Assembly: GCA_002813105.2 (NCBI GenBank)
Contig: CP017966.2
Span: 124,001-188,000, forward strand
Direction: 5' to 3'
DNA: 64,000 nt
DNA from: Methanosarcinales archaeon Met12
GTDB taxonomy: Archaea; Halobacteriota; UBA148; JAJOKI01
The notes beneath the pieces are model-generated. The model searched no databases. It saw only the letters and a program-made list of their open reading frames with translations, and was not told the origin of the DNA. The position numbers and the translations under genes were made by a program. Numbering within the stretch: position 1 is the stretch's first letter; each line of letters opens with the position of its first letter. This document shows, in pieces, positions 7,800 to 49,020 of this stretch.

Positions 7800-8261
7800 A
7801 TGTATGCAGTAATCAGATTGCGGAGCAGCGTCCACACCAGGCCAGATATAAAAGATACTCTGAAAATGATGCGCCTGAATCGAATTAACCATTGTGCTGT
7901 GCTTGCCGAAACTCCCAACAACAAAGGCATGATTCAAAAAGTGAAGGACTATGTAGCCTGGGGCATCATCGATGTAGACTCTCTCGATTTAATCCTGCAT
8001 AAAAGAGGCGAATTAGAAGGAGGGACACCACTCACTGACAAATATGTGAAAGATGCTGCCAAATATAAATCCATCAAGGAGTTCGCCAAGGCGGTGTGTG
8101 ATGGAGATGCATCCCTCAAAGATATTCCAAAGCTCACACCGGTGTTCAGACTCCATCCTCCTCGCAAAGGACATAGAGGTATCAAAAAGACGTTCCAACA
8201 AGGTGGAGCGCTGGGATTTTATGGCGAGGAAATTAACGCACTTATTAAGCAAATGCGGTGA
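7800..8261 (+). CDS. rpl30: Ribosomal protein L30
   Basis: 153 residues, the long archaeal L30 (L7e) form. The N-terminal YAVIRLRSSVHTRPDIKDTLKMMRLNRINHC block is diagnostic, and the C-terminal basic HPPRKGHRGIKKTFQQGGALG block follows. The gene sits between S5 and L15 as expected. An AAAAGGAGAGGAG purine stretch just upstream is a strong ribosome-binding site. Confidence 0.95.
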   Translation: MYAVIRLRSSVHTRPDIKDTLKMMRLNRINHCAVLAETPNNKGMIQKVKDYVAWGIIDVDSLDLILHKRGELEGGTPLTDKYVKDAAKYKSIKEFAKAVCDGDASLKDIPKLTPVFRLHPPRKGHRGIKKTFQQGGALGFYGEEINALIKQMR

Positions 8262-8265
8262 TGAA

Positions 8266-8709
8266 ATGAGCAAATCGAAGACGAAGAAATACAGAGGGTC
8301 CAGAACCTTTGGTGCCGGTACACACAAAAACCGCCGAGGTGGCGGAAGTAGAGGTGGGAGAGGGCATGCTGGCGGATGTAAACATCACTTTGTCAGGGCG
8401 CTGCAGGAAGGGCGAGCCTATGGCAAACATGGCTTCAAACGACCACCCAAGGTAGTCACGAAATATGCATCCATCAACGTGGGCGAACTGGACCAGATTT
8501 CAGAAATTTTGTTATCGAAGGGCATGGCAAAAGAACTGGACGGGACAATTCAAATCAGTTTGACCGATATAAATGTCGACAAGGTGCTCGGCAGTGGACA
8601 GATGACAAAAAAGCTGACCATAACTGCAAGCAAGTTTTCCGAAACTGCCAAGGCGAAAATAGAAAAACTGGGGGGCAAATGTATATTTCTGAATAGGTGC
8701 AACATATGA
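8266..8709 (+). CDS. rpl15: Ribosomal protein L15
   Basis: The ATG at 8266 gives 147 residues, the normal archaeal L15 (L27ae) length; the longer open frame upstream lies within L30. The N-terminal KTKKYRGSRTFGAGTHKNRR and the glycine-rich RGGGSRGGRGHAGG stretch are diagnostic. Its stop overlaps the secY start at 8706. Confidence 0.94.
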   Translation: MSKSKTKKYRGSRTFGAGTHKNRRGGGSRGGRGHAGGCKHHFVRALQEGRAYGKHGFKRPPKVVTKYASINVGELDQISEILLSKGMAKELDGTIQISLTDINVDKVLGSGQMTKKLTITASKFSETAKAKIEKLGGKCIFLNRCNI

Positions 8710-10199
8710 GCGAAGCGAGCATTAAAGACCGACTGGAACCATTTCTTAATCGTCTGCCAGCAGTGGCAAAACCAAAAGGGCACGTACATTTCAAAACTAA
8801 ATTGATGTGGACTATTGCCATTCTACTACTATATTTCGTACTCACCAATGTTCCATTATTTGGACTCCATCCAGATTCCCGTGACTTGTTTGCGATGTAT
8901 CGAACGATCATGGCAGGAGAGTTTGGTTCGATCGTGCAGTTAGGTATCGGTCCCATAGTTACGGCATCGATTATACTGCAGCTACTCGTCGGTGCGGATA
9001 TCATCAAACTGGACCTGAGTGATCCGAAAGACCAGTCGATATTCCAGGGCGCTCAGAAACTACTCGTATTAGTCATGATTACGATGACCGCTGCTCTTCA
9101 GCTATTAGGGAGATTTCTGCTACCCAATTATGAACTGGCAGGCACATTGGGTGTGAGTGTATCTGCAGTCATATGGATACTATTCATACAAGTGGCAATT
9201 GGGGGTATTTTGATCTTGTTCATGGATGAAATTGTCTCGAAATGGGGCATTGGCTCCGGTGTAGGATTATTTATAGTTGCCAGCATATCACAGGCGATGG
9301 TTGTAGGGTTATTTAGTTGGGAGCCAGATCCCTTTGCGATTCATCCGTTTACTGGTGCAGCACTTCCAGTTGGATTGATCCCAAAATGGCATGAGATATT
9401 TACTACGATAGATATGGGGTGGTTACTCGGTGGAGACGGGCTGTTCTTCTTTTTGTTGAGCGGCGGATTGATGGCTTTGCTCGGCACGATCTTGATATTT
9501 ATCATTGTAGTGTATGTCGAGAGTATGAGAGTCGAGATTCCACTTGCTCACTCTGCAGTGCGTGGTGCACGAGGAAAATTTCCTGTTAAGCTGATCTATG
9601 CAAGCGTTCTACCGATAATCCTGGTGATGGCGCTGGTGGCAAATATCCAGATGGGAGGGATGTTGCTATGGGAAAGCGATGTCCCTATCTTAGGTAATAA
9701 TCCAATGATCGGAGAGTTCATAGATGGCGTGGCCGTATCGGGGCTGATGTATTATCTTGCGCCAATTGCCGGTCCACATGAGCTGATACCGGGGGTACAT
9801 GAGCCGGGGCAGATACTTCTTCGTGTGATCATATATTTAGCGGTCATGATCATTGGATCCATAGTTTTTGCGCTGTTTTGGATCGAAACCACTGGCATGG
9901 GGCCAAAAAAGGTGGCAGAACGAATTCAACGCTCTGGCATGCAAATTCCAGGGTACAGGAGAGATATTGGAGTCGTTGAAAATATCATGAAACGATATAT
10001 TCCAAACATCACCATAATCGGGGGCGCATTCATCGGCGCGTTAGCTGCATTGGCGAGCTTTACTGGTATCATTGGACATGCCGGTGGAACAGGGCTCTTA
10101 CTGACCGTTAGCATCATTTACAAGATGTACGAGCAAATAGCGAAAGAGCAGATGAGTGAAATGCATCCGATGATGCGAACACTCCTCGGAGGCGAGTGA
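8706..10199 (+). CDS. secY: Protein translocase subunit SecY
   Basis: The ATG at 8706 overlaps the L15 stop (ATGA), so I prefer it to the GTG nine bases upstream. The ~497-residue protein has about ten hydrophobic segments and the archaeal SecY/Sec61-alpha pattern: an early membrane segment after KTKLMWTIAILLLYF, the plug region, and the cytoplasmic loop VYVESMRVEIPLAHSAVRGARGKFPVKLIY. It forms the membrane channel for secreted and membrane proteins. Placement after L15 is conserved in both Bacteria and Archaea. Confidence 0.95.
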   Translation: MSEASIKDRLEPFLNRLPAVAKPKGHVHFKTKLMWTIAILLLYFVLTNVPLFGLHPDSRDLFAMYRTIMAGEFGSIVQLGIGPIVTASIILQLLVGADIIKLDLSDPKDQSIFQGAQKLLVLVMITMTAALQLLGRFLLPNYELAGTLGVSVSAVIWILFIQVAIGGILILFMDEIVSKWGIGSGVGLFIVASISQAMVVGLFSWEPDPFAIHPFTGAALPVGLIPKWHEIFTTIDMGWLLGGDGLFFFLLSGGLMALLGTILIFIIVVYVESMRVEIPLAHSAVRGARGKFPVKLIYASVLPIILVMALVANIQMGGMLLWESDVPILGNNPMIGEFIDGVAVSGLMYYLAPIAGPHELIPGVHEPGQILLRVIIYLAVMIIGSIVFALFWIETTGMGPKKVAERIQRSGMQIPGYRRDIGVVENIMKRYIPNITIIGGAFIGALAALASFTGIIGHAGGTGLLLTVSIIYKMYEQIAKEQMSEMHPMMRTLLGGE

Positions 10200-42219: not shown

Positions 42220-43131
42220 ATGAAAAGAGTCCTCAAGAACTCGAATTTTGTATTTTTATCTGCCACCATATTCGCGCTAATCTACCCAGATTTTGCAGAA
42301 CGCCTAACGTGGTATATCATACCTGCGCTAATCATACCCACTACGGTTTCCCTTTGTGACATTAAATTACGAAAGCTTGACATGAAAAAGAACCTCAAGC
42401 CAATTCTCGTAGCATTAATGTTGAATTATGTTCTTCTGTCTGGCATAGTTCTAATCATGAGCGTTTTGCTCATAGAAGATGACGCCCTCTTTAAAGGATT
42501 CATCGTGATGGTTGCGACACCACCGGCCATAGGGGTCATAGCTTATAGTTCGCTTTTGAAGGGGAATACGCATTTGGCATTGATGGCAAACGCATTTATC
42601 TACGTATTATCCATATTCTTAATGCCGGTAATTCTCCTCCTATTGCTGGGGATAGAGGTGGTGAATCCTTTTGAAGTATTGAAAATTTTATTGATACTGA
42701 TACTCTTGCCGCTAATCCTCTCGAGGATAATAATTCGAATTCCATACTACGAACAGCATAAAGAGGACAAGGACATTCTCATCAATCTGGGTTTTTTCTT
42801 GGTAATCTATGTGGTCATCGGACTAAATCAGGATATTTTGTTGAGTGGTGATTATGGCCTATTGTTGCCAATATTCATAATAGGAGCTATGAGGACCTTT
42901 TTTTCGGGCACACTGGTGTTCAAGATTGGCAGAATGCTCAACATTCCATATGATGAACTGGTCACCTACACGCTGTTCAGCTCATATAAGAATCTTGGCC
43001 TTACTGCAACAACCTCTTTAATCCTATTCGGCACCAAGGCGGCAGTTCCTGCGGCGATTTGCATATTATTGGAGGTTCTGATGTTCATCTATTATTCCGT
43101 CTTGATGAATCCAATAAACCAAAAGGATTAA
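42220..43131 (+). CDS. Bile acid:sodium symporter (BASS/ACR3-like) family membrane protein
   Basis: 303 residues with about nine to ten hydrophobic segments, no signal peptide. MVATPPAIGVIAYSSLLKGNTHLALMANAFIYVLSI and the C-terminal FSSYKNLGLTATTSLILFGTKAAVPAAI match the two crossing-helix regions of the BASS superfamily. Substrate might be an organic anion or arsenite; nothing in the sequence decides this. The ATG lies five bases after tRNA-Ala. Confidence 0.8.
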   Translation: MKRVLKNSNFVFLSATIFALIYPDFAERLTWYIIPALIIPTTVSLCDIKLRKLDMKKNLKPILVALMLNYVLLSGIVLIMSVLLIEDDALFKGFIVMVATPPAIGVIAYSSLLKGNTHLALMANAFIYVLSIFLMPVILLLLLGIEVVNPFEVLKILLILILLPLILSRIIIRIPYYEQHKEDKDILINLGFFLVIYVVIGLNQDILLSGDYGLLLPIFIIGAMRTFFSGTLVFKIGRMLNIPYDELVTYTLFSSYKNLGLTATTSLILFGTKAAVPAAICILLEVLMFIYYSVLMNPINQKD

Positions 43132-43227: not shown

Positions 43228-43785
43228 ATGTCAATATTAGAATCACCAGTCAAGATTGAAAATGTAGTAGCATCTATGCATCTCGCTGACGGATTTGATC
43301 TGAAGCAGATTGGCACAAAACTGAATAATGCCGAATATGATAAGAAAAAATTCCCTGGGCTTGTATATCGGGTTAAAAACCCCAAGGCGGCCTTTTTAAT
43401 ATTCAAGTCAGGGAAGGTAAACTGTACTGGCGCACGAAGAGTGGAAGATGTGAAAAAAGCGACCGAGGGGCTTACTGCAGAGTTGCGCAATATAGGGCTT
43501 ACGATCAGAGGTGACCCGGAAATCGTGGTTCAAAATATCGTAGCATCTGCTGATCTTGGCACGGAACTGAACCTCAACGCGATCGCCATCGGACTCGGTT
43601 TGGAGAATATCGAATATGAACCCGAGGTATTTCCAGGATTGGTTTATCGAGTCTCCGATCCCAAACTCGTCGTGTTGATATTCGGCTCTGGAAAATTGGT
43701 GATAACCGGATGCAAAACGCCAGAGGACTGTGAGATGGGCGTAGAAGTGGTGCGGCGTCAATTAGAAGCTCTAAACCTATTGTAA
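43228..43785 (+). CDS. tbp: TATA-box binding protein (TBP)
   Basis: 185 residues: two imperfect direct repeats, as in all TBPs. Repeat 1 has [61 protein letters not shown]; repeat 2 has [61 protein letters not shown]. The FPGLVYR motif occurs in each. It has an AAGGGAACAT leader and no acidic C-terminal tail. It recruits TFB and polymerase. Confidence 0.96.
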
Positions 43786-43987: not shown

Positions 43988-44002
43988 ATGACCTGTGGTC
44001 AT
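43988..44002 (+). promoter_or_regulatory. Perfect palindrome and TATA box ahead of the lipid operon
   Basis: ATGACC-TGT-GGTCAT is a 6-bp perfect inverted repeat. TTTATAT (44009-44015) lies just downstream, about 25 nt before the ATG at 44039, so the transcript should be leaderless. A regulator bound here would sit on or beside the BRE/TATA. The first gene of the operon is a helix-turn-helix protein, the obvious candidate ligand. Confidence 0.55.
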
Positions 44003-44038
44003 GTAATATTTATATGTTATAATGCTTATTTATAACGT

Positions 44039-44416
44039 ATGAGACAGGGAAAAGTAATGCGGAATGTGGTGTTAGCATTAGAAGAAGGTGCTAATACAAT
44101 CAACGGCATCGCAAGACGTATTTACGGAGAGAGTGCCTTCTGCAGCGATGGCAGGTTATTGGATGGTAAAAAGCAGGCGACGATAAGTCGAGCACTGGCA
44201 ACATTACAACGCCATAAAATCGTCATAAAAATACGTAAACAGTTCTATGTATGGGACACATCGATTAAAGACTATATAGAGCAGCATATAGCAAATTTAA
44301 GGCAATCGGCATATCGCCTTGATAAACAATTAGCGAAGACAAACGAAGATATCAAACGGTTTGAGCATGTCTTGCTGAAGTTGAAGTCTCAAAAAGACGA
44401 TGAGGTTAGAGAGTGA
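44039..44416 (+). CDS. Winged-helix regulator with C-terminal coiled coil
   Basis: 125 residues. VVLALEEGANTINGIARRIYGESAF, then KKQATISRALATLQRHKIVIKIRKQFYVWD, form a winged helix with recognition helix ATISRALATLQRHK. Residues ~85-120 (IANLRQSAYRLDKQLAKTNEDIKRFEHVLLKLKSQ) are a coiled coil. It is the first gene of a three-gene operon, stopping four bases before the radical SAM gene. It probably regulates that operon through the palindrome upstream; this is inference. Confidence 0.75.
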   Translation: MRQGKVMRNVVLALEEGANTINGIARRIYGESAFCSDGRLLDGKKQATISRALATLQRHKIVIKIRKQFYVWDTSIKDYIEQHIANLRQSAYRLDKQLAKTNEDIKRFEHVLLKLKSQKDDEVRE

Positions 44417-44420
44417 ATAT

Positions 44421-45923
44421 ATGAAGAAGACAAAATCACTCTGTCCAGAATGCATGAAGGTCATAGATGCCTCCATATTTGAAGAAGACGGCAAAATTAT
44501 AATCGAAAAGAATTGTAAAGACCATGGAGAATTTAAGGATATATGCTGGTCCAATTCTGATTTTTATAAAAAATTCGAAAGGGTTGGAAACTGTGGTGAA
44601 TTCCCTGAAAATTCAAACACCAGAAAACACATCGCCTCTCAAGAGAAGCTCGGAGATAAAAAGGGATGCCCCTATGATTGCGGGCTGTGCTCCAATCACA
44701 AGACGATGACACTGCTCGCGAATATGGATGTGACAAACAGATGCAACCAAAGCTGTCGTGTCTGCTTTGCAAATGCGGCTGTTAGTGGACACATCTACGA
44801 GCCGTCGATGAATCAAATTAAGAAGATGATGGCTGTTCTCAGAAATGATAAACCCATTCCATGTCTGGCAATACAATTCGCTGGCGGTGAGCCAACTATG
44901 CGAGAGGATTTTCCAGAAATAGTAGCTATGGCAAAGGATTTTGGCTTCTCCCAGATACAGGTGGCGACAAATGGCATAAAACTTGCCAACAACGTAGAAT
45001 ACTGCAGAAGATTGCAGGAAGCCGGATTAAATACAGTTTATCTACAATTTGATGGTGTGAATAGTGCATCTTATATGCACGCCCGCGGCTATAACGCACT
45101 TCCGGCCAAATTAGGCGCCATTGAGAATTGTAGAAGGGCGGGTCTGACCAGCATTGTACTGGTTCCGACACTGATTAAAGGAGTAAATGACGACCAGATA
45201 GGGGAGATATTACGATTCGCCTCTAAAAATCTGGATGTTATCAGGGGCGTGAACATACAGCCCGTTTCTTTTGTGGGGAGAATCACCAAGGAAGAACGCG
45301 AAAAACAGAGGATTACAATACCAGACTTCTTTAAACTCATAGAAGAACAGACAAATGGCGAAATAACTGGAGACGATTTTTATCCTGTGCCGTTTGTATT
45401 GCCAATATCTCATTTTGTAGAGGCGTGGCGTAGACGTCAACAGGTAGAATTTACCGTCCATCCACACTGTGGTGCTGCAACCTACATTTTCGTTAAAAAC
45501 GGTCATTTTGTACCCATAACCAGATTCATAGATGTAGAAAGATTGATGGAGTTCTTAGATAGTTCGGCAAAGGAAGTCAACCAATCGAAGGTCAGTAGGC
45601 TGATGACCGTGGAAAAAATACTCAGAGAAGTTCCAAAGTTCGTGGATAAAAGTAAGGTGCCAACCGGAATAAACATCACAAAAATGCTGATAGATGTCCT
45701 CAGAAAGGGGTCTATCGGTGCCACTTCCGAGTTCCATAGAAATACGCTTTTCTTAGGAGTCATGCATTTTCAGGACCCATACAACATAGACCTGGAAAGG
45801 GTCCAGCGATGCGGCATTCACTATGCGGTGCCTGATGGGAGGGTGATTCCATTTTGCGCCTACAACACGATATATCGGCCGCATATCGAAAGAGAATATT
45901 GCAAAGAGGGAGGGGCGATATGA
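44421..45923 (+). CDS. tes: Radical SAM protein, probable tetraether lipid synthase (Tes/MJ0619 family)
   Basis: 500 residues. An N-terminal zinc-like CPECMKVIDASIFEEDGKII region and CPYDCGLCSNHKTMTLLANMDVTNRCNQSCRVCFANA are the hallmark of this family; CNQSCRVC is the radical SAM CxxxCxxC site and CPYDCGLC a second cluster site. IQFAGGEPTMREDFPEIVA (GGE motif) follows, and a C-terminal cysteine region ends CAYNTIYRPHIEREYC. Tes joins archaeol tails into tetraethers. The paralogous pterin or other lipid enzymes are possible alternatives. Confidence 0.83.
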   Translation: MKKTKSLCPECMKVIDASIFEEDGKIIIEKNCKDHGEFKDICWSNSDFYKKFERVGNCGEFPENSNTRKHIASQEKLGDKKGCPYDCGLCSNHKTMTLLANMDVTNRCNQSCRVCFANAAVSGHIYEPSMNQIKKMMAVLRNDKPIPCLAIQFAGGEPTMREDFPEIVAMAKDFGFSQIQVATNGIKLANNVEYCRRLQEAGLNTVYLQFDGVNSASYMHARGYNALPAKLGAIENCRRAGLTSIVLVPTLIKGVNDDQIGEILRFASKNLDVIRGVNIQPVSFVGRITKEEREKQRITIPDFFKLIEEQTNGEITGDDFYPVPFVLPISHFVEAWRRRQQVEFTVHPHCGAATYIFVKNGHFVPITRFIDVERLMEFLDSSAKEVNQSKVSRLMTVEKILREVPKFVDKSKVPTGINITKMLIDVLRKGSIGATSEFHRNTLFLGVMHFQDPYNIDLERVQRCGIHYAVPDGRVIPFCAYNTIYRPHIEREYCKEGGAI

Positions 45924-47263
45924 AAAAATACGATGCCATAATCGTGGGGGCTGGGATCAGTGGACTGCTTACTGCACTCGCAATCTCAAAGTCGAATGGT
46001 GGAAAAAACGTTTTGATGCTCGAAAAAGAAGATTACATCGGCGGAGCCTGCAGGTCATATAACGTGGATGGCTATACGGTCGATACAGGACCGCACATCA
46101 TCACGCAACTTAACGATGGTCCCCTGAGAGAACTTATGACAAGATATTTCGACGTCGTCCCGGTGTTTAAGCCACATGGAAAATATTACGTTAAAATAAA
46201 CGGTTCGACAAAAGAGTTTCCATGGACTGTTACCGACTGGATCCAGTTCGACGTGCTTCCATTGAGAGATAGAATACTGATCATCCAAGCGTTATTTTCA
46301 GCCCTAAATGCATCCTTGATAACACCAAAAAAGCTTGCAGGAGTCTCGGTGTACGACTATATTAAAAACTATAATTTCTCGGAGAGCACGCTTAGATTCA
46401 TCGATACCATGGCGCACTTTTTGACGGGCACATCGATGTATGAAACATCGGTCTTCAGGATTTTCGACTGGAGCGACACGAAGGGTATGCAGAAAAAAGT
46501 GACAGGTCTGGTAAACTTCTTGTTCAAGGAGGGGGCAAGGGATCAGGCATATCCGATTGGCGGAATAGGAAGCATTATCGATGCAATTGTCAGTTCATTT
46601 CCAGATGGCAGGGTCGATATCAAGAAGAATGTCGAGGTGAAAAGAATAATCATAGAAAACGATTCGGTAAAGGGAGTTTCAGATGGCGAAAATGAATATT
46701 ATTCCGACCTGGTGGTTTACTCTGGCTTCGTGTCCGAATTCCCCAAGATACTCGATGACGGTGCGATAGCAACTGAATACGCAGATAAACTCAGCAATAT
46801 TACAAATGTCCTGGCTCTAACGATCTGGCTTGGGCTAAAGAAAAAATATCTTAAAAATGTCGGGTCCGAAATTTTAGTAGGCAATTCAAGCTGTACAGGC
46901 GCTTGGGCAATTTCGGTAACCAATTATGACAAAAATCTTGCTCCGCCAGAAGGGCAACTTATTGGATTCTTGTTTAAGATCGGTGATAAAGATATTGAAT
47001 CCACTAAAAAACGTGCAATGGAGTTTATCTGCAAGTACTACCCATCCATCGAAAAGGATATAGAGATGATTCACTACCAGGTCATGATTCCAGAGAAATC
47101 AGTAAACAAAACCAATCAAATTGTCCCATCGCACAGAACTCCCATTCGTGGACTCTATTTGGTAGGGACCGATACATCCAAAAAAAGCATGGGCATCACC
47201 AGGGCATCATATTCTGTGGTGGAGTGTCTCACTGTTTTAGAAGATGATGGTTTGTTATGTTGA
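45920..47263 (+). CDS. FAD-dependent phytoene-desaturase-like oxidoreductase
   Basis: 447 residues. The FAD-binding motif is DAIIVGAGISGLLTALAISK, followed by EKEDYIGGACRSYNVDGYTVDTGPHIITQ, typical of phytoene desaturase/retinol saturase relatives. The C-terminal GLYLVGTDTSKKSMGITRASYSVVECL is the second flavin contact. It overlaps the Tes gene by four bases (ATGA). Acting on isoprenoid chains (saturation, desaturation or dehydrogenation) is the most natural reading given its neighbour; this is inference. Geranylgeranyl reductase has a different motif pattern. Confidence 0.82.
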   Translation: MKKYDAIIVGAGISGLLTALAISKSNGGKNVLMLEKEDYIGGACRSYNVDGYTVDTGPHIITQLNDGPLRELMTRYFDVVPVFKPHGKYYVKINGSTKEFPWTVTDWIQFDVLPLRDRILIIQALFSALNASLITPKKLAGVSVYDYIKNYNFSESTLRFIDTMAHFLTGTSMYETSVFRIFDWSDTKGMQKKVTGLVNFLFKEGARDQAYPIGGIGSIIDAIVSSFPDGRVDIKKNVEVKRIIIENDSVKGVSDGENEYYSDLVVYSGFVSEFPKILDDGAIATEYADKLSNITNVLALTIWLGLKKKYLKNVGSEILVGNSSCTGAWAISVTNYDKNLAPPEGQLIGFLFKIGDKDIESTKKRAMEFICKYYPSIEKDIEMIHYQVMIPEKSVNKTNQIVPSHRTPIRGLYLVGTDTSKKSMGITRASYSVVECLTVLEDDGLLC

Positions 47264-47334: not shown

Positions 47335-47787
47335 ATGGAAGTAATTGCCTCACTACTAATCGCATTAATCGGTGCTATTGCAGGTGTCATTGTATATATT
47401 CATGCGGTAGAAATAATAACCAAAAAGAAGCTCTTAACAGCATTAATTGAAGAACTACAGGAGAATAAAGAAATATTAAAATCTGAGGTAAATTCATTAG
47501 AATTAGAAGCAATAAGGAATGCAACAAGGAAGTTGAGAATTTCTTATTACTCTGACTCTTACATCGCTGCACGAAATGCAGGAATATTAGCAAGTTTACC
47601 TAAAGAAACACGCAATAAATTAATGGGAATATATATTGACTTACGATATCTTAATGGTATTGTTACTACAATGGATTTTGGTCTTATGAGCTTCAAAAAA
47701 GAAAAGCGAATTCAAGCGCCCGTTACATTCTTTAAGAGACATGCTGATGACACAGATGATTTGATTAAAGATTTAAAGAAATTATAA
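47335..47787 (+). CDS. Hypothetical membrane-anchored protein
   Basis: 150 residues: an N-terminal membrane segment (IASLLIALIGAIAGVIVYIHAVEII) followed by a helical, mostly charged soluble part (KKKLLTALIEELQENKEILKSEVNSLELEA). The codon use is AT-rich. I do not recognise a family. The ATG at 47335 has a weak upstream GGGAGA. It looks like the N-anchored helical proteins often seen near mobile regions; function unknown. Confidence 0.55.
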   Translation: MEVIASLLIALIGAIAGVIVYIHAVEIITKKKLLTALIEELQENKEILKSEVNSLELEAIRNATRKLRISYYSDSYIAARNAGILASLPKETRNKLMGIYIDLRYLNGIVTTMDFGLMSFKKEKRIQAPVTFFKRHADDTDDLIKDLKKL

Positions 47788-47941: not shown

Positions 47942-48967
47942 TCATACAAACTCTGCATCGCTGTCTATCACCTCTGTCAGGATATGACCATCATGCGCAT
48001 TGAGTTTGATAGACCCGGTCTTTCCCCTGATATTCCATATTGGAATGTGAATTAAATCCAGTTCAATGCTAATATCCTTCTGGCGCGGCTTAAAGGATTT
48101 ATTTTCGAAAATGATCGCTTCGCCGACCATTTCATTAATCCGAAGTCGCTTTGTGTGCTTTTTAATGATCGCTTGAATGGCGATATCCTGTGCCTCCTCT
48201 TGAGATATCGCCAGACTCTCTATCCTGTAATTCTCATCAGGGACGCTTACCCGATCGCGCGCCCGCTCATATTGCACGAATTTGTTTTCACCAACTAAAG
48301 CGTTGACGACGCCTGTGCCATCTCCGGATAAATCCACGGTCCTCGACTTGTATTGCTTTACCAGACTGATTTTATAATGGTACTGCCAGAATGGTGTAAA
48401 CACGATAATCGCGCTTTCTGTCTGCCCCACCCGACTGTTGGCTATGGAGACGGCGTTTTGTCTCGTGATATGGACCGAAAGAGAGCGTAATTGTATGTCA
48501 ATTTTCTGTGTTGGAATCCCGTAGGAAATACAACTCTCATCGGATAGTGGCAATTGCGGGATATAATTGCCCTGCTCGGCATCCAATCCAAAAAAATTTG
48601 ATACGGAGTCCTGCAATGCAAAACCATCTTTTCCACATATATTGGCAAGTGCGGCCTTTCCAATTTGTTTCTCCAGTTCACCCCGATCCCAGAGAAGTAT
48701 GTTGTTTTGCTCAGCAAATAGGCAGGCATCGAGGGCAAACGACCCGATGGTTACCAGCAGACCTCTGCCTCCCTGATCTCTGGCGACCCCAATCAGGCGC
48801 TCTACATCGTAATAATCGCCATTCTGGCTGTGCATAACCAAAAGTCTGTCGTCATCCTTTTCAGCGACTAGTATGTTATTTTTCAATTCGAACGGATGCA
48901 CGCCAACGTGATAGTGATATGTGGTGAAGACATCTTTGAGGATTTTATAAATCGCATCGTAATTCAT
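47942..48967 (-). CDS. Restriction-endonuclease-like (Mrr-type) domain protein
   Basis: About 341 residues from the ATG at 48967 (another ATG lies three codons upstream). The N-terminal ~110 residues, with RLIGVARDQGGRGLLVTIGSFALDACLFAEQNNILLWDRGELEKQIG, resemble the core of Mrr-like endonuclease folds. A middle barrel-like region follows. The C-terminus (IHIPIWNIRGKTGSIKLNAHDGHILTEV) resembles a PepSY-like fold. The catalytic residues are not all recognisable, so enzymatic activity is uncertain. It is next to a RecJ-like gene. Confidence 0.55.
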   Translation of the reverse strand: MNYDAIYKILKDVFTTYHYHVGVHPFELKNNILVAEKDDDRLLVMHSQNGDYYDVERLIGVARDQGGRGLLVTIGSFALDACLFAEQNNILLWDRGELEKQIGKAALANICGKDGFALQDSVSNFFGLDAEQGNYIPQLPLSDESCISYGIPTQKIDIQLRSLSVHITRQNAVSIANSRVGQTESAIIVFTPFWQYHYKISLVKQYKSRTVDLSGDGTGVVNALVGENKFVQYERARDRVSVPDENYRIESLAISQEEAQDIAIQAIIKKHTKRLRINEMVGEAIIFENKSFKPRQKDISIELDLIHIPIWNIRGKTGSIKLNAHDGHILTEVIDSDAEFV

Positions 48968-49020
48968 GGTAATCACATGAGATTACACATTAAAATAAAA
49001 ATACCTTATGATTATCCCAA

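Follow-up and report, generated by a model that had tools for sequence, protein, structure and literature searches.

Three consecutive genes of an MCR-lacking genome appear to form a lineage-specific membrane-lipid operon that brings known enzyme families together in a new way: a tetraether synthase (Tes) is preceded by an orphan protein and followed by a FAD flavoprotein of the hydroxyarchaeol-synthase family. The probability that this unit co-expresses lipid hydration and tail-to-tail coupling, with hydroxyarchaeol and hydroxy-tetraethers as predicted products and with a predicted mode of regulation, is estimated at about 0.58. Sequence relationships further identify the Tes as a horizontally acquired replacement, a point that the earlier note on this DNA had missed.

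Operon organization and conservation

The window (the whole stretch of DNA that was analysed, 64,000 nucleotides) corresponds to positions 124001-188000 of a single, 97%-complete contig of 1.07 Mb. The operon genes and the syntenic anchors that flank them are as follows.

42220-43131, + strand: SBF-type transporter (PF01758); syntenic anchor outside the operon, also upstream of the flavoprotein in family f3
43228-43785, + strand: TATA-binding protein (TBP) gene (PF00352); syntenic anchor outside the operon, with the same surroundings in f3
44039-44416, + strand: gene 1, orphan protein of 125 aa; putative DNA-binding (HTH) regulator whose C-terminal part is a long helix
44421-45923, + strand: gene 2, tetraether synthase Tes, 500 aa
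45920-47263, + strand: gene 3, FAD flavoprotein from a basal branch of the hydroxyarchaeol-synthase family (that of probable MA0127), 447 aa
47942-48976, - strand: protein with a weak match to Mrr-type nucleases (PF04471, 22.3 bits); syntenic anchor outside the operon

Genes 1 and 2 are separated by 4 nt (ATAT), and genes 2 and 3 share a 4-nt ATGA overlap; the start codon of Tes is the ATG at the position where its homologues start. The earlier description of a compact three-gene unit with this gap and overlap agrees with the ORF coordinates. Just one further genome has been sequenced for this genus (G001), and it has the same gene order and the same ATGA overlap. Identity between the two genomes is 82-83% for Tes and 90% for the flavoprotein, and the C-terminal half of the putative regulator is located just upstream of Tes in G001 (71% identity over 52 residues). 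Because overlap and order are kept in this second species, and not because of the palindrome described below, the operon stands above chance.

The order to which the window genome belongs was sampled in three families, namely its own (f1), f2, and f3, within a set of 295 genomes of the phylum. In this set, Tes and the flavoprotein are adjacent in this genus only, and the nearest other case seen on one contig has them 53 kb apart (G172). The earlier note had suggested a search for the trio across Halobacteriota; it was found in two genomes of one genus only. The earlier note had named a lack of neighbourhood in relatives as evidence against its reading, and outside the genus Tes and the flavoprotein do lie apart.

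Directly 3′ of the operon, positions 47335-47787 encode a protein of 150 aa that is hydrophobic over an N-terminal stretch and has no Pfam or NCBIfam match.

The radical SAM protein as a tetraether synthase

Model scores and alignment identify the radical SAM protein as a genuine tetraether synthase. It scores 720.2 bits to NF045702 (equivalog cut-off 450), with residues 3-495 matching model positions 1-484, and 390 bits to the TrsS model, whose own cut-off is 490. Its alignment with 7tol from M. jannaschii covers the full length, with C8/C11, CPYDCGLC, CNQSCRVC, HCG, RCGIHY, and PFC conserved; in this alignment the iron-sulfur cluster cysteines, the rubredoxin-like iron site, and the radical SAM CxxxCxxC motif are all present. 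The gene is single copy, and the genome encodes no other Tes-class protein. The identification of this gene as Tes, already proposed in the earlier note, is thus upheld by the 720-bit match and the retained cysteines of 7tol. The M. jannaschii homologue, Tes/GDGT-MAS, couples the terminal methyl carbons of saturated diethers to give GTGT, GDGT, and macrocyclic archaeol (PMC8941075, PMC9433317).

Another reading, in which the protein is a Tes paralogue with a different lipid product, would fit two observations: it is not orthologous to the Tes found in the rest of its order, and in the nearest family, f8, some genomes encode a second Tes-like protein. It is opposed by the contrast between 720 bits to the Tes model and 390 bits to TrsS (cut-off 490), by the absence of any other Tes-class protein from the genome, by the aligned cluster cysteines of 7tol, and by the tree, in which the window protein branches within the main Tes copies from f5, f8, f16, and f11; f5 is taken to be the Methanosarcinaceae, given its named loci and the M. 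acetivorans genome. Given the NF045702 score, the 7tol alignment, and the single copy, the clustering with a non-Tes paralogue that had been proposed as a check is not seen. The paralogue reading was rejected on model scores, 7tol alignment, and tree position, and is regarded as very improbable.

The second Tes-like proteins mentioned above occur in f8 genomes G024, G042, and G056, score ~482-494 bits, and are possible paralogues with another lipid product.

Family membership of the flavoprotein

The flavoprotein is assigned by sequence comparison, with confidence, to the hydroxyarchaeol-synthase family. The activity published for one member of this family is the hydration of a geranylgeranyl chain at its 2′,3′ double bond. 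Genome G128, which we take to be M. acetivorans C2A, contains two family members, located at 153034-154401 and at 3704201-3705643 of contig C1. The copy at 153 kb is presumably MA0127, the published hydroxyarchaeol synthase, with which the position fits. The window flavoprotein is 41% identical to this copy over the whole length and 44% identical to the 3.704-Mb copy, and the next flavoprotein families follow at 27% and 25%, which leaves the family sharply delimited. It was found in all Methanosarcinaceae genomes (112/112), in parts of f8 and f30, and, among the matches listed, in Methanoperedens and ANME-2; a contig scan gave no Nitrososphaerota homologue among the matches listed.

PMC10821996 and PMC9128505 describe a phytoene-desaturase-like protein of M. 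acetivorans that makes hydroxyarchaeol. In the flavoprotein tree, the window protein lies with f3 in a basal branch, outside an 18-row Methanosarcina-type clade (support 100/99) that includes the characterised enzyme, and it is accordingly counted as a family relative and not as an ortholog. It is predicted to catalyse the same hydration as the Methanosarcina enzyme; because it lies outside the clade of the latter, its reaction may differ.

In the earlier note the third gene had been seen as a phytoene-desaturase-like partner that possibly introduces a change of saturation or a ring or bridge, a view now replaced by the hydroxyarchaeol-synthase assignment at 41% identity. A role as phytoene desaturase in carotenoid synthesis was rejected: the protein scores 63 bits to the CrtI model TIGR02734 (cut-off 238), and phytoene synthase is lacking, with no PF00494 match in G000 or in the searched genomes of its order. 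The genome encodes carS and, as separate genes elsewhere, two geranylgeranyl reductases (GGRs) over cut-off. Since GGRs are present and phytoene synthase is absent, a carotenoid role is unlikely.

A related possibility is that this basal branch has a redox function, desaturating or saturating isoprenoid chains and thereby tuning the unsaturation of tetraethers. The structural model (pLDDT 88), which has a phytoene-desaturase/3ka7 fold of the amine-oxidase type with a FAD site, is compatible with such a role, as is the position of the branch outside the clade of the characterised hydratase. Against it stand the 41-44% identity to both M. acetivorans members versus ~20% to true desaturases, the missing phytoene synthase, and the separate GGRs that cover saturation. 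A redox role is accordingly considered improbable.

Two further observations concern the family at large. In M. acetivorans, the copy at the MA0127 position is divergent and of a type found in some Methanosarcina only, and the other copy is universal in the Methanosarcinaceae; because the MA0127-like copy is so confined, the universal, uncharacterised copy may be the main hydroxyarchaeol enzyme of that family. In addition, at least four MAGs labelled as Patescibacteria encode a homologue with 42-44% identity (L073, L074, L075, near 7980-9340; and L077, 3391-4734). By eye, these genes have bacterial neighbours in common (e.g., trmD, KH-domain, rpsP, and gpmI-like genes), and the tree places them together as the sister group (100/98) of the Methanosarcina-type enzymes; the homologue looks like a real bacterial gene rather than a binning error.

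A resident flavoprotein and an acquired Tes

The histories of the two enzymes were traced through their gene neighbourhoods. In f3 (G005, G007, and G009), a flavoprotein with 73-75% identity occupies the same neighbourhood without the regulator and Tes. The f3 order is EF-1-beta-like, SBF transporter, flavoprotein, TBP, Mrr-like, DHH, ArgC, CBS, and ArgJ (in G009, ArgC to ArgJ fall beyond the contig end), and the order in the window is SBF, TBP, regulator, Tes, flavoprotein, Mrr-like, DHH, ArgC, CBS, and ArgJ. The f1 and f3 flavoproteins are grouped in the tree with support of 100/100; no flavoprotein was found in f2, nor in one 94%-complete f3 genome. The flavoprotein would thus already have been at its present locus in the ancestor shared with f3. 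The Mrr-like protein of the window (47942-48976) also has its counterpart at the same locus in f3 relatives, beside a DHH-family gene, with 47-48% identity.

Tes has a different home in related families. In f2, f3, and f12, it is located divergently beside carS (CDP-archaeol synthase, PF01864) and stands alone, without flavoprotein or regulator; in f2 and f3 glyA comes next, so that Tes lies between carS and glyA. In both genomes of the genus, carS and glyA are adjacent and divergent with no Tes between them, at a spacing of 82 bp in the window genome. The window Tes is closest to those of f8 (58-61% identity) and the Methanosarcinaceae, as against ~47% (blastp) to the Tes of its own order, and a tree constrained to hold it with the Tes of its order was rejected (log-likelihood 214 lower, p-AU 5e-59). 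One f8 genome, G015, encodes a divergent methyl/alkyl-CoM reductase. Together, the empty carS/glyA slot and the rejected constraint imply that the native Tes was lost and that a foreign Tes took over.

On these sequence grounds, Tes is horizontally acquired here, has replaced the native copy, and has landed beside the flavoprotein. The proposed course of events is that the native gene between carS and glyA was lost and that the foreign Tes, together with the regulator, came to stand immediately before the flavoprotein.

Promoter, palindrome, and candidate regulator

Two elements precede the first gene.

43988-44002, no strand: ATGACC-TGT-GGTCAT, an inverted repeat immediately 5′ of the promoter; possible operator, at chance level
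44009-44015, + strand: TATA-like TTTATAT, ~27 nt 5′ of the first ATG, located by inspection

From the spacing between the TATA-like element and the ATG, it is plausible that the operon mRNA is leaderless. The perfect palindrome pointed out in the earlier note is indeed present, and it is not significant: a 253-bp intergenic stretch is expected to hold ~0.7 inverted repeats as large as this one, and 44% of shuffles contain at least one. Elsewhere in the genome, the sequence recurs perfectly just once, within a gene for a large RNA polymerase subunit. With this chance-level frequency and this location of the other copy, the palindrome was rejected as evidence of a regulon. The G001 contig does not include the promoter region of the operon.

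The 125-aa protein has no Pfam or NCBIfam match and, among 295 genomes of the phylum, is confined to this genus. Its single-sequence AlphaFold model is reliable for the C-terminal helix only, the N-terminal half being uninformative. From its position, it is a tentative candidate for a regulator of its own promoter. With a protein of no recognisable family and a palindrome at chance level, the dedicated regulator and the "switchable" membrane remodelling of the earlier note stay conjectural.

Predicted joint function

In the proposed pathway, the flavoprotein would bind FAD and add water to the 2′,3′ double bond in a geranylgeranyl chain of an unsaturated precursor, after which a GGR encoded elsewhere would saturate the remaining bonds to give a C3-hydroxylated phytanyl chain, as suggested by family membership. 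The flavoprotein would therefore act before GGR, and Tes would act on saturated chains, joining the terminal methyl carbons of saturated diethers into GTGT, GDGT, or macrocyclic archaeol. Translation of both enzymes from one mRNA would be expected to yield hydroxyarchaeol and hydroxylated tetraethers together, and the upstream orphan protein may control its own promoter. The membrane-lipid unit proposed in the earlier note is thus kept in part: Tes stands next to an enzyme of a lipid-chain family, and the desaturation, ring, or bridge step gives way to one expected of the hydroxyarchaeol-synthase family.

According to PMC9433317, GDGT-MAS expressed in M. acetivorans mainly bound 3-hydroxyarchaetidylglycerol, and in cell extract it was fully saturated lipids that were consumed; the bound lipid described there shows that a C3 hydroxyl is compatible with Tes binding. 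Some OH-GDGTs have been reported in ANME-2c/d (PMC10635418). From the bound hydroxylipid, the ANME-2c/d OH-GDGTs, and the presence of the flavoprotein family in Methanoperedens and ANME-2, hydroxyarchaeol and OH-GDGT are predicted in this lineage.

Neither enzyme needs the other, since f2 has Tes without the flavoprotein and some Methanosarcinaceae (e.g., G047 and G113) have the flavoprotein without a full-length Tes. The two genes could accordingly be chance neighbours that share a transcript and no common pathway, the flavoprotein hydroxylating diethers as in Methanosarcina and Tes independently making unmodified tetraethers; these separate occurrences, the adjacency in just two genomes of one genus, and the f3 flavoprotein at the same locus without Tes are what such a history would leave. 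The retention of the ATGA overlap and gene order between two species with Tes proteins 82-83% identical, the disappearance of the native Tes at carS, and the use of the same lipid pool by both enzymes speak against it, and chance neighbourhood is considered rather unlikely. The shared lipid-modifying operon remains the preferred reading. Its stronger form, in which the hydratase feeds Tes and the operon serves, under its own regulation, as a module dedicated to making C3-hydroxylated tetraethers, is advanced tentatively, as a possibility well short of even odds.

OH-GDGTs (hydroxylated tetraethers) occur in sediments and archaea. No paper naming a gene for their formation was found in the literature searched. 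An operon of Tes and a hydroxyarchaeol-synthase homologue offers a concrete two-gene hypothesis for the origin of OH-GDGTs; a dedicated module, if real, would be a gene-level lead to their biosynthesis and would extend to lineages where both genes are present and unlinked (e.g., ANME-2d). Loss of the native Tes at carS and installation of a foreign Tes in a new setting show that horizontal gene transfer is able to rewire tetraether synthesis, which bears on the use of tetraethers as taxonomic markers.

Comparison with known systems

The window Tes resembles M. jannaschii Tes/GDGT-MAS (7tol) in its full-length alignment, N-terminal zinc-ribbon (CxxC), CPYDCGLC, CNxxCxxC, and C-terminal cysteines, and differs from it in being of foreign origin and in sharing its operon with an orphan putative regulator and a flavoprotein. 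With the phytoene desaturases (CrtI/PDS) and GGRs, the window flavoprotein shares an amine-oxidase-type FAD fold; however, it is only ~20% identical to them and far under their family cut-offs, and GGRs are encoded separately. The M. acetivorans hydroxyarchaeol synthase (Mori et al. 2015, as cited in PMC10821996) belongs to the same family as the window flavoprotein and has the same FAD motifs and fold. In contrast to the Methanosarcina forms, the window protein has no mid-protein insertion, stands in a basal branch with f3, and is linked to Tes, its activity being predicted.
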